NCBI RefSeq assembly: GCF_000478585.1
Contig: NZ_ARWI01000001.1
Span: forward strand, 558,001-622,000
Direction: 5' to 3'
Source of the DNA: Thiomicrorhabdus sp. Kp2
GTDB taxonomy: Bacteria > Pseudomonadota > Gammaproteobacteria > Thiomicrospirales > Thiomicrospiraceae
Length of the DNA stretch: 64,000 nucleotides
Part shown: positions 50,993-53,992 of the stretch, one piece after another
How the letters are laid out: every line of letters starts with the position of its first letter
How positions within the stretch are numbered: position 1 is the stretch's first letter
Program-made: the position numbers and the translations under genes
The notes under the pieces: generated by a model
The model's database searches: none
The model's input: only the letters and a program-made list of their open reading frames with translations
What the model was told of the DNA's origin: nothing

Positions 50993-51150
50993 ACTAGATT
51001 GGTTTTTATACTTTGTAGTATGGACTTACCCTGAGTCAACTTAATGGCATGCAATATGCTTATTACTCACTAAAAATTCAAATTAAAAGGCCTCTAAACC
51101 TTATTAGCTACTAAATTTAGAGTCACTTGAAAAGGATAGGAATACTCGCC

Positions 51151-52407
51151 ATGTCAGAAATCGATTTAGAAAAAGATGACAAAGCCACCCAAGAAATGTT
51201 ATCAATGATGGGAAATATTACTCCAGAAATGAGTGATTCTCTTGAAGACTTTGATGCGGATGATTTGTTAAATGCTCTTGATGAGCTCCCCTCTATTGAA
51301 GCTGACCAAGATGAAACCCAAGACGTATATAGTTCAAAAGAGACTGATGACAATGACGACACAGAAACGGATTCACTTGCGGACTTAGGTATTGATTTAG
51401 ATGACCTTGACTCTTTAATGGCAGAAGCGGCTTCTGAAGTTGAAACTGAAGTTGAAGTCAAAGAACCACCTCAAGAAATGAGTTCAGCAGGCGACGATAT
51501 TGACTTAGACAGCTTAGATTTAGATGACTTAGAGGGTTTAGATGACATAGATAATCTTGACGATTTATCCCAGAGCGAAGCAGAAACAGCTCTTGAAGTC
51601 GATTCAGAAGGATCCGAGGTCAACCTAGACGATATTGACCTCAATGAATTCACAGAAGATGCTGGTACGCCTAATGAAAATAGCGATGAAGTGACCGCTG
51701 AGATGGATAATATTGATTTAGACAATCTGGATTTGGATGATTTAGACAACCTAGCAGATACTACTTCTGAAACAGGTAGTGAAACGACCGAACCTGACGA
51801 TGGCAATAACGATATGCCAGACCTAGATGATATTGACCTAGAAGCTCTGGATAACGCAGAAGAAGAGTTACCTATTGATCAAGCGGGTATTGAAGACACC
51901 GATATCGAAGATGATGTAGAACACATTTCTGAAACCAGCGAAACGGAAAACAGTCACCTAGAAATGGTCATGGAAAACCAAGACACAAACCAGATGCACG
52001 CAACAGAAGAGATATCAAACGATGATCTTTCGCTGATAGACCAAGCAAGCCAATCTGTTTCAGCTATGGAAGAAGCGATAGGCCTTGACCAATCCATTCA
52101 AAACATAGCTCAAGAAGTAAAAACGACTGCACAAGAAGCCACTCAATTAGCGTTAGCGACTTCTAAAGAAGCGCAAGCTTCTGCCGAAAAAACACAGCAA
52201 GCAATTGAAGCTACTTTCGCCGCTGCCGAACGCGCTTTTGAAGCGGCTAAAAAAGCAGGTTACACTGTGGATCTAACGCAATTAAACAGTAATCAAAACA
52301 CTGAAGAAGTTGCAGCCCAGTTAGCTGAAATACAAGAAAAGAATACCCATTTAAAATCTGTCAATGAGAGCATCAGAGCGAGAATTGCAGAAATGAAAGC
52401 AGAATAG
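51151..52407 (+). CDS. Highly acidic repeat protein with C-terminal coiled coil, unknown function
   Basis: 418 residues from the ATG at 51151 (MSEIDLEKDD), with AGGA nine bases upstream; the longer frame starts at a TTG. Residues about 70-250 hold several blocks of the form D-I-D-L-D-x-L-D-L-D-D-L, separated by Ser/Glu/Thr-rich linkers. Residues about 315-418 are Ala/Glu/Gln/Lys-rich and predicted coiled coil (TSKEAQASAEKTQQAIEATF). There is no signal peptide or membrane segment. The next gene, 10 bases on, shares the Ala-rich helical style (LALETSKTAQEAA), so the two may bind each other. No family is recognised. Confidence 0.8.
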   Translation: MSEIDLEKDDKATQEMLSMMGNITPEMSDSLEDFDADDLLNALDELPSIEADQDETQDVYSSKETDDNDDTETDSLADLGIDLDDLDSLMAEAASEVETEVEVKEPPQEMSSAGDDIDLDSLDLDDLEGLDDIDNLDDLSQSEAETALEVDSEGSEVNLDDIDLNEFTEDAGTPNENSDEVTAEMDNIDLDNLDLDDLDNLADTTSETGSETTEPDDGNNDMPDLDDIDLEALDNAEEELPIDQAGIEDTDIEDDVEHISETSETENSHLEMVMENQDTNQMHATEEISNDDLSLIDQASQSVSAMEEAIGLDQSIQNIAQEVKTTAQEATQLALATSKEAQASAEKTQQAIEATFAAAERAFEAAKKAGYTVDLTQLNSNQNTEEVAAQLAEIQEKNTHLKSVNESIRARIAEMKAE

Positions 52408-52417
52408 GCCCTTTCTT

Positions 52418-53695
52418 ATGAGTGATATTATGGATGACCTACTTGAAGAAGTTGAACAACTTGAGCAATCCACTCAGGAGTTGGAGTCTGCTACCCAAAA
52501 AACGGCAACTCAAAAAAAACAGGTAGATGACGTGACAAATAAAATGACTTCTGAAGCTAATTTACTCGCTTTAGAAACATCTAAAACAGCCCAAGAAGCG
52601 GCAGTACAAAGTCATCAAGCAGCCCAATCTTCTATAAAACAAGCAGAATCACTCAAAGAACAAGTACTAGAGCTGAATGAGTCGAACTTTAATTGGCGAC
52701 AAGCCGTTCGTAATGCCAGTAAAGAAATACAATCTGCTAAAAGTACGTTTACAGTCATGTTAATTACTTCCATCGTGTTTAGCCTAGTCGCACTGGGTGC
52801 AATGGGCTATCTGCTTTACGCCATGCAAAAACAAGAAGCACAGTTCAAAGGTGAAGTGCTTGATATGGTTTCCACTGAAAACACGCTACTGAATAAAAAA
52901 ATCACACTCAAAATGGATGAACTGGCCTCTGTCATTGAAATGCTTACGCAACAAGTGTCACAAAGTCAGATGCAAACCTCAAATATGACTGACAAACTTG
53001 AGCTATCTGAGAGTGAATCAAAATCCGATTTAATGCACGAAACAGCCGAACAAATTGAAACCCAACAAGAAACTAAGCAGCCAATAATAGATAACTCATT
53101 AACAACAGAAGTTGCCAATGACATGGCTGCAAACGCGCGTAAAACGGAACATACAGCAGAACATGGTTCAGAGCCTAATTCAGATCATAACATTGAAAAA
53201 CAGAATACTGAAAAACAAGATATTGAACCAAAAGTAATAACAGAAGCTCATCAAAAACCAGCGACTCTTGAAAAAGCGGTTCAAACGGAGGCTTCTGCTC
53301 AAGACGCAGTACAAAATACCATTTCAGCAAAAGAATACGCTGAATTAAAAGAACTCATTGAAAAGATACTGGCTGAACAGAAAGCTTTGCAAACACAGCA
53401 ATTGCAAGCCACTCCCCCAGCTGGTTTAAGTTCTGAACAAGTTAAAAAACTTAACGACATTAGCTGGCTTGTTAGAAAACAAGCTAAAACACTACAAGCT
53501 ATTGAAGCCAAAATAGGATTAAAACAAAACGGTAAAACCACTCAAGCAAATCGCAACACCGTTATAAACGAAATTAAAAATCTACAGTTGCAACAAGGTG
53601 CTTTACAAAAACAGTTATCTGAGATTCAAGTAACACTCAAAAAATACACTGAGCAACCCAAAGAAGCTGCACCCTATAGCTATAAAGCCAAATAA
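52418..53695 (+). CDS. Single-pass membrane coiled-coil protein, unknown function
   Basis: 425 residues. An N-terminal coiled coil (1-105) with LALETSKTAQEAAVQSHQAA echoes the end of the previous protein. One membrane segment lies at about 111-133 (FTVMLITSIVFSLVALGAMG). The rest is a long polar, Gln/Glu/Lys-rich rod ending in further coiled coil (about 315-415). Likely bound to the inner membrane, with its N-terminus in the cytoplasm where the acidic partner is. Function is not recognised. Confidence 0.8.
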   Translation: MSDIMDDLLEEVEQLEQSTQELESATQKTATQKKQVDDVTNKMTSEANLLALETSKTAQEAAVQSHQAAQSSIKQAESLKEQVLELNESNFNWRQAVRNASKEIQSAKSTFTVMLITSIVFSLVALGAMGYLLYAMQKQEAQFKGEVLDMVSTENTLLNKKITLKMDELASVIEMLTQQVSQSQMQTSNMTDKLELSESESKSDLMHETAEQIETQQETKQPIIDNSLTTEVANDMAANARKTEHTAEHGSEPNSDHNIEKQNTEKQDIEPKVITEAHQKPATLEKAVQTEASAQDAVQNTISAKEYAELKELIEKILAEQKALQTQQLQATPPAGLSSEQVKKLNDISWLVRKQAKTLQAIEAKIGLKQNGKTTQANRNTVINEIKNLQLQQGALQKQLSEIQVTLKKYTEQPKEAAPYSYKAK

Positions 53696-53723: not shown

Positions 53724-53758
53724 AAAAGCCTTTATCTGCAAAGATATGGGCTTTTTTA
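53724..53758 (+). terminator. Terminator of the acidic/coiled-coil operon
   Basis: Stem AAAAGCC/GGCTTTT with an inner TATCT/AGATA pairing and six T residues after it. Confidence 0.85.
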
Positions 53759-53901: not shown

Positions 53902-53992
53902 TGGCGGTGGACTAGGGATTCGAACCCCAGGTAGGCTACAAACCTACAACGGTTTTCAAGACCGCCGCCTTCAACCGCTCAGCCAGTCCACC
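53902..53992 (-). tRNA. tRNA-Ser (TGA)
   Basis: 91 bases with encoded CCA, anticodon TGA in GGTCTTGAAAACC, and the long variable arm of serine tRNAs (TTGTAGGTTTGTAGCCTAC). Confidence 0.95.

Follow-up and report, generated by a model that had tools for sequence, protein, structure and literature searches.

A conserved pair of coiled-coil proteins with membrane-scaffold anatomy in Thiomicrospira and its relatives

Organisers of the cell pole, of chemotaxis arrays and of flagella, as described in excerpts of the papers cited below by PMC accession, are the known systems closest to the gene pair reported here, which encodes an acidic protein (P1) and a membrane protein (P2). HubP and FimV have a single membrane span, an acidic and disordered cytoplasmic region (repetitive in HubP), a periplasmic part and low sequence conservation, features that recur in the pair (PMC12918733). 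However, the span and the acidic cytoplasmic region, which HubP and FimV hold in one protein, are split between P2 and P1 respectively, and the membrane protein P2 is placed N-in and has coiled coils. We found no match to LysM in P1, P2 or their relatives (Pfam), and no TPR or FimV domain in P1 or P2 (Pfam, NCBIfam). ParP and ParC of Vibrio form a scaffold that ties chemotaxis arrays to the pole, with ParP joining the arrays through its C-terminus via MCPs and CheA (PMC5706961). In contrast to this system, the two-gene P1-P2 operon holds no ParA-type ATPase gene. The C-terminal domain of ParP is CheW-like, whereas Pfam detected no CheW-like domain in either protein of the pair or in the parts conserved among their relatives.

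MotV and MotW of Vibrio cholerae are membrane proteins affecting motility, and MotW, like P2, has coiled coils and periplasmic parts; they differ from the pair in the TPR of MotV, the Ig domain and K-rich part of MotW, and their independent encoding (PMC8789113), and no TPR, Ig or K-rich domain of these types was found in P1 or P2 (Pfam, NCBIfam). FipA (DUF2802), a small membrane protein with one span and a coiled region, functions in polar flagellation (PMC11620751); P2, in contrast, has a large periplasmic part, and DUF2802 gave no match in P1, P2 or relatives (Pfam). Finally, P1 and P2 appear to share a D(D/E/A)LLxxL core with the CheY-binding peptides of the CheZ tail and the FliM N-terminus. 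The conserved EIDALL motif of FliM/FliY is a site for CheY-P (PMC9126983), and another paper refers to a structure that contains CheY and a CheZ peptide (PMC9659070). The pair departs from these peptides in that the P2 motif lies at or near the N-terminus, that the P1 motif is internal and that the FliM type is unmatched. The pair may work like a polar or chemotaxis organiser, and it is a member of none of the families tested.

Anatomy of the locus and its two proteins

The window, meaning the whole 64,000-nucleotide stretch of DNA that we analysed, covers positions 558001-622000 of the genome of Thiomicrorhabdus sp. Kp2, a single contig of 2,725,706 bases. P1 and P2 lie on the same (+) strand, separated by a gap of 10 nt, and form a two-gene operon (Table 1); the list of open reading frames also holds an alternative start for P1, an upstream TTG at 51127. 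The hairpin 3' of P2 was folded at -16.6 kcal/mol (for the folded stretch) with a z of -3.65, and 0 of 200 shuffles were equally good. The shared operon and terminator that had been proposed from the sequence alone agree with this arrangement. The hairpin is absent from the seven terminator-like sites of a simple terminator scan, and a simple scan for sigma-70 promoters gave 0, compared with 5.8 in shuffles. Upstream, the pair is bordered by a gene that we named by eye as an rluA-type pseudouridine synthase; its counterpart in genome G053 is PseudoU_synth_2 (Pfam). The rluA gene, a phosphatase-like gene and rne were rejected as functional partners of the pair, being read as inherited synteny, and a carboxysome-positioning role for the pair was likewise considered and rejected.

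Table 1. Positions of the pair, its parts and its downstream neighbours in the window.
Feature	Position	Strand	Description and basis
P1 gene	51151..52407	+	418 aa acidic protein, ATG start; ORF list
P1 N-terminal motif MSEIDLEKDDKATQEMLSMMG	51151..51213	+	Family-conserved in alignment; 33/37 P1 fit motif pattern
P1 acidic variable linker holding D/L blocks	51214..52020	+	Composition, block count
P1 DFDADDLLNALDEL, CheZ-tail-like D(D/E/A)LLxxL motif	51247..51288	+	Pattern count, PSSM
P1 C-terminal Ala-rich coiled coil, most conserved part	52027..52404	+	Alignment, periodicity
P2 gene	52418..53695	+	425 aa bitopic membrane protein; ORF list
P2 N-terminal motif MSDIMDDLLEEVEQLE, CheZ-tail-like	52418..52465	+	Alignment, pattern count, PSSM
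P2 cytosolic Ala-rich coiled coil	52550..52741	+	Profile comparison, periodicity, model
P2 single transmembrane segment, about aa 110-136, N-in/C-out by positive-inside rule	52745..52825	+	Hydrophobicity, charge
P2 conserved periplasmic helix holding GEVLDMVSTENTLLNKKITLKMDELASVIE	52829..52966	+	Alignment, model
P2 variable, predicted disordered linker	52967..53290	+	Alignment, model
P2 C-terminal region, three predicted helices	53291..53653	+	Model
P2 C-terminal PYSYKAK	53672..53692	+	Pattern count
Terminator-type hairpin, then U run	53724-53755	+	Folding vs shuffles
tRNA-Ser(TGA), downstream of pair	53902-53992	-	

No Pfam or NCBIfam family was found over cut-off for either window protein, and the pair was not recognisable in literature searches of open-licence PMC papers, in agreement with its initial labelling as undescribed. 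Scattered weak matches of relatives (to SMC, ZapB, DUF7856, HSBP1, DivIVA and others) were set aside as coiled-coil composition. Most of the chains retrieved by profile searches of the PDB were designed bundles, coiled coils or otherwise helical, and a Foldseek search with the P2 model gave no match at E 0.001 or below.

The conserved N-terminus of P1 reads MSxIDxEKDDxATQEMLxMM in the family alignment, followed by the conserved D(D/E/A)LLxxL motif near residues 33-46. Residues 1-290 of the window protein contain 37% D+E and 1.4% K+R, and residues 291-418 contain 20% Ala, with a peak at the 3.5-residue period in residues 300-365. The sequence-only reading had described D/L repeats and an Ala-rich coiled coil, and both are real in the window: six blocks of the form [ILVN][DN]L[DEN]xL[DE] were counted in residues 1-290, whereas 2000 shuffles of these residues held 0.04 on average and never more than 2. 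The blocks did not prove to be conserved, as any were present in only 5 of 36 P1 sequences and three or more in 2 (the window counted in both), and we rejected them as a conserved active feature. Acidity, in contrast, is general, with a median of 36% D+E before the last 128 residues, compared with a maximum of 23% in 391 other proteins; these counts use 36 of the 37 P1 sequences, one having been left out because its linker is cut short. Judged from alignment and composition, the conserved elements of P1 are thus the acidic character of the linker, the N-terminus and the coiled coil. The acidic linker of a Thiomicrospira P1 (G055, L056:6847-7222) consists of an 18-bp minisatellite of 20.9 copies with 98% matches, and the length of the P1 arm may differ between strains.

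For P2, the conserved N-terminus reads MxDxxDDLLDELExLE in the alignment. Residues 45-108 peak at the 3.5-residue period and are followed by the one hydrophobic segment of the protein, the best 19-residue window of which begins at aa 111, confirming the expected Ala-rich coiled coil ahead of one membrane segment. K+R is heavier N-terminal of this segment in 39 of the 40 rows scored, the window among them, and we therefore took the N-terminus as cytosolic. Behind the membrane, a conserved periplasmic stretch reads KGEVLDIIQTENxL...TLKxDELAS, and a PYxY occurs within the last 30 aa in 37 of 40 P2 sequences, with PYSY(K/R) as the conserved end. The residues invariant in 32 sequences are M1, D6, K165 and E174. 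The structural model of P2 places a helix at 3-183 through the membrane, then disorder, then helices at 292-330, 339-368 and 376-412, with a mean pLDDT of 66.8 and a pTM of 0.27; pLDDT exceeds 70 for the most part within residues 11-160 and in portions of the C-terminal helices. Instead of the long rod first envisaged behind the membrane segment, the model thus predicts a helix, a disordered linker of about 110 aa and a three-helix region. The nearest solved shapes for the C-terminal region are designed three-helix coiled coils, at a non-significant E of 0.06.

The coiled coils of the two proteins are alike, as had been noticed at the outset, with 47% over 32 aa by BLASTP (E 0.006) and a profile-profile E of 3e-5, but with a probability of only 73% in the latter comparison. 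This likeness could reflect either common ancestry or shared coiled-coil composition. Distances in the P1 coiled coil and the P2 core correlate at 0.61 across 31 loci, and the partial correlation given the distances of the rluA and phosphatase genes is 0.547 (Mantel p 0.0002, 5000 permutations, 31 loci). As the partial correlation of P2 with the phosphatase gene given rluA is also high (0.469), we regard the P1-P2 correlation as supportive rather than decisive. A joint model of P1 and P2 from an alignment of 12 rows (pLDDT 56, pTM 0.29) was too poor to judge contact, and a mixed P1/P2 alignment was dropped, its P2-only rows having been misplaced onto P1.

Distribution of the pair and a natural deletion

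We sought P2 in 62 genomes of the family, which also represent the whole order as sampled, and identified it in 58 by single sequence and in 59 by profile; the three genomes lacking a profile match were G001, G039 and G053. P1 was matched by single sequence in 53 of the 62, all of which have P2, with P1 adjoining P2 by coordinates, and P1 without P2 was found in none. Six genomes contained P2 without a P1 match. Five of these (G002, G003, G004, G052 and G060) have a diverged P1-like ORF just upstream of P2, and in the sixth (G020) P2 reaches the contig end; the independent occurrence that would speak against a pair was accordingly not encountered among these genomes. At the level of genera, P2 is present in 7 of 7 and P1 in 6 of 7. 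Fifteen named records retrieved with the P1 coiled-coil profile belong mostly to Thiomicrorhabdus, Hydrogenovibrio and Thiomicrospira, and the names of a few MAGs among them stop at order or class.

A search of 369 class genomes, a few of which belong to the family, was run at an E of 1e-4 or lower; outside the family, the P2 profile matched only the MAG G118. With the P1 profile, G118 was again recovered, together with a weak match in G063 (E 3e-5) confined to part of the coiled coil. P1 and P2 are adjacent and in the usual order in G118 (L108), a MAG in which CheW matches are only broken; one such match (G118:C110:18043-18365) holds a stop and lies near a contig end. Much shortened pairs occur in G052 (L063:5326-6564) and G060 (L110:5635-6881), with a P1 of 111 and 109 aa and a P2 of 296 and 298 aa, respectively; these keep a DxLLDDI motif in P1 and lack the DDLL at the P2 N-terminus. 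We also noted stops or splits in the P2 matches of G021, G034 and G048, and a stop in the P1 matches of G021, G043 and G045, which may represent either assembly error or decay.

The presence of the pair was compared with that of the flagellar gene fliM. FliM was found in 49 of 50 good genomes, and P2 in 48 of those 49. FliM without a P2 match was seen in G001 and G039. In G001, the exception among the 49, the contig stops within mnmA, a gene found between the che cluster and the pair in the related genome G002. P2 without a FliM match was seen in G020, G034, G048 and G057, which are incomplete MAGs.

The sole genome without FliM among the 50 is G053 (1,932,455 bp), which we take as Thioalkalimicrobium cyclicum ALM1, described as non-motile (PMC4891895, in excerpt). 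Searches of this genome gave no match to FliM, CheB, CheW, the P2 profile or P1. Within an otherwise syntenic block of 24 genes of its relative G060 (172467 to 193357), 19 were found in G053 and five were not, namely P1, P2, cheA, cheD and a 222-aa ORF of the che cluster beside cheA. The genes htpG, FKBP and rluA, between or beside the lost genes, are retained, and rluA marks the deletion site. This comparison covers a 19-kb stretch of G053, with seven further G060 genes beyond it not counted, and cheD and cheA of G060 were named by likeness to Pfam-checked genes of G056. The genome-wide test in G053 relies on the P2 profile, which is able to pick up the shortened P2 proteins of G052 and G060; the shortened P1 of these relatives is missed by the window P1, so that absence of P1 beyond the 19-kb stretch is tested only via P2.

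The pair and the che genes were cleanly lost together only once, in a single species that also has a small genome and an altered cell shape, so the evidence is strong as a pattern but weak in numbers. In this non-motile relative the pair is gone along with chemotaxis genes, from which we conclude that it is probably a so far undescribed component of the machinery for swimming or of the cell pole; its absence together with both chemotaxis and flagella makes a polar organiser plausible.

Linkage to chemotaxis genes and the CheZ-tail-like motif

We measured the distance between P2 and cheB in 27 genomes, chosen by eye, that hold P2 and a stand-alone cheB (an open frame of about 340-440 aa) on one contig; a 48-residue cheB fragment 13 kb from P2 in G048 was left out. 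Fifteen of the 27 genomes show a distance of no more than 65 kb and 12 one above 100 kb; in three Thiomicrospira it falls to 3.9-4.5 kb. In the Thiomicrospira genomes G054, G055 and G059, an MCP gene, cheB and cheR adjoin the pair together with rluA and the phosphatase-like gene, and in G052, G056, G057, G058 and G060 the pair lies near FKBP, htpG, a che-cluster ORF and cheA. In G002 a distance of 7.7 kb separates the pair from cheB, and the pair does not have rluA as a neighbour. In the window genome, cheB lies at 628,680, 17 kb beyond the P2 end and near the start of a che/fla cluster, the MCP, CheZ and CheW domains of which were checked with Pfam, the remainder being named by eye. The linkage of the pair to che/fla genes can be inherited synteny.

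Acidic-LF peptides were noted at the C-termini of several che-related proteins: L145:5171-6427(-) (EIELF), L142:4068-4655(-) (EIELF), L144:2405-3628(-) (DVDLF) and L149:4226-4765(+) (DDDLF), the bearers overall being two MCPs, a che-cluster ORF and a CheW-like protein. These ends are possibly a docking tail. L142:4068-4655(-) is a 195-aa ORF between cheA and htpG, without a Pfam match, in which we recognised by eye a CheZ-like stretch (FQFYDKLSQRLEHV vs SYQDLTGQVLNRV).

The CheZ tails of 22 loci resemble SQDDIDDLLSDLGI, and the FliM starts of 20 loci resemble ILSQDEVDALLKGM. We identified the pattern D[DAE]LLxx[LMVI] in 32 of 40 P2 sequences, always in the first 25 aa, and in 24 of 37 P1 sequences, compared with 9 of 411 other ORFs; shuffle rates were 0.65% for the N-terminal 25 aa of P2 and 3.3% for P1. 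Both sets include the window and leave out, as unclustered, the pairs of G052 and G060, the P2 of G118 and the P1 of G002-G004. A PSSM built from the 22 CheZ tails of these genomes scored 24/40 P2 and 23/37 P1 above the 95th percentile of 892 other proteins, and a combined CheZ and FliM PSSM scored 18/40 and 19/37. With the FliM-only PSSM there was no enrichment of the two proteins (2/40 P2 and 4/37 P1 above the 95th percentile), and a FliM-type peptide in P1 or P2 was rejected on this ground. Measured against shuffles of their own letters, 24/40 P2 and 14/37 P1 exceeded the 95th percentile with the CheZ PSSM; with only 14 P1 sequences doing so, part of the P1 score reflects composition. A PDB search with the N-terminus of a relative's P2 retrieved no CheZ, and the true CheZ tail of the window genome, SQEDIDDLLSDLGI, itself aligned with the CheZ chain of PDB 1KMI at an E of only 0.31. 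The motifs of P1 and P2 thus appear to resemble the CheZ tail, a moderate likeness that is firmer for P2 and suggestive only.

Scaffold readings of the pair and their implications

Together, these genes form an undescribed two-protein family whose conservation and membrane-scaffold anatomy are both firm. Of the readings first put forward, that of a membrane scaffold is supported, and the co-occurrence of the two genes speaks for it. A link to chemotaxis or the flagellar pole is probable in our judgement, and we lean, with rather less assurance, towards P1 and P2 being one complex, an envelope-spanning scaffold for the chemotaxis or flagellar machinery of the order, with binding of P1 to P2 and a location at the pole as presumed parts of that proposal. 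Such a scaffold, in Thiomicrospira and its relatives, would most likely sit at the cell pole. P2 would cross the inner membrane once and hold to the periplasm through its helices and the conserved PYSY(K/R) end, a putative anchor, and its cytosolic coiled coil would recruit P1 through the similar coiled coil of that protein. P1 would then present a long and flexible acidic arm. Since D(D/E/A)LLxxL peptides resembling the CheZ tail are present in P1 as well as in P2, CheY or some other response regulator may be bound by the scaffold and kept near the array or the motor; docking of CheY itself is a tentative proposal, which we consider doubtful.

The loss in T. cyclicum may be read in other ways. 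Its cells are irregular spheres and often open rings (PMC4891895, in excerpt), and the pair might be a general scaffold of the cell pole or cell shape, not specific to chemotaxis, that was lost because polarity and rod shape were given up, with the loss of motility as one consequence. P2 spans the envelope and has conserved periplasmic parts, which would suit such a role, as would a need for another pole landmark: none of the 12 genomes searched exceeded the cut-off of TIGR03504, the FimV C-terminal model, and one (G005) had a sub-threshold match, but 14 control genomes also gave none over cut-off. We nonetheless think this reading rather unlikely, given that the deletion took out the pair and che genes of the same block with single-gene precision, and that the pair stands beside cheB, cheR and an MCP gene in three Thiomicrospira.

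A role outside motility is a further, unlikely reading, under which an ordinary coiled-coil pair of the envelope or division machinery was lost by genome reduction and coincided with the che genes by chance. The single loss event, the separation of the pair from cheB by over 100 kb in 12 of the 27 genomes and the weak matches of single relatives to SMC or ZapB are consistent with this; however, only the pair and che-cluster genes are missing from the 24-gene block, and the pair is otherwise nearly universal among the family genomes searched. That the ORFs are functionless, low-complexity by-products is highly improbable. Fast evolution of the P1 linker, which in L056 is a minisatellite, would fit this reading, but P2 occurs in all seven genera and P1 in six, the ends and coiled coils are conserved, adjacency is kept and a terminator-type hairpin follows, and we take this reading to be refuted by conservation.

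Returning to the scaffold for chemotaxis or flagella, its furthest extension would be a lineage-specific replacement for organisers of the HubP or ParP type, in which a two-protein membrane-anchored platform, with CheZ-tail-like peptides both on P2 and on the acidic P1 arm of variable length, concentrates CheY near array and motor and so tunes turning; we put this forward as a speculation, and an improbable one. The pair is present in nearly all genomes searched of an order of sulphur-oxidising chemolithoautotrophs, yet has no family name in Pfam or NCBIfam. The natural deletion in G053 provides a clear prediction for a knock-out. If the pair organises the chemotaxis or flagellar pole, it would show how bacteria without a match to the FimV C-terminal model, as in the 12 genomes searched, mark their pole, and, if CheY docking is true, the pair would add a further kind of CheY-docking surface beside CheZ and FliM.
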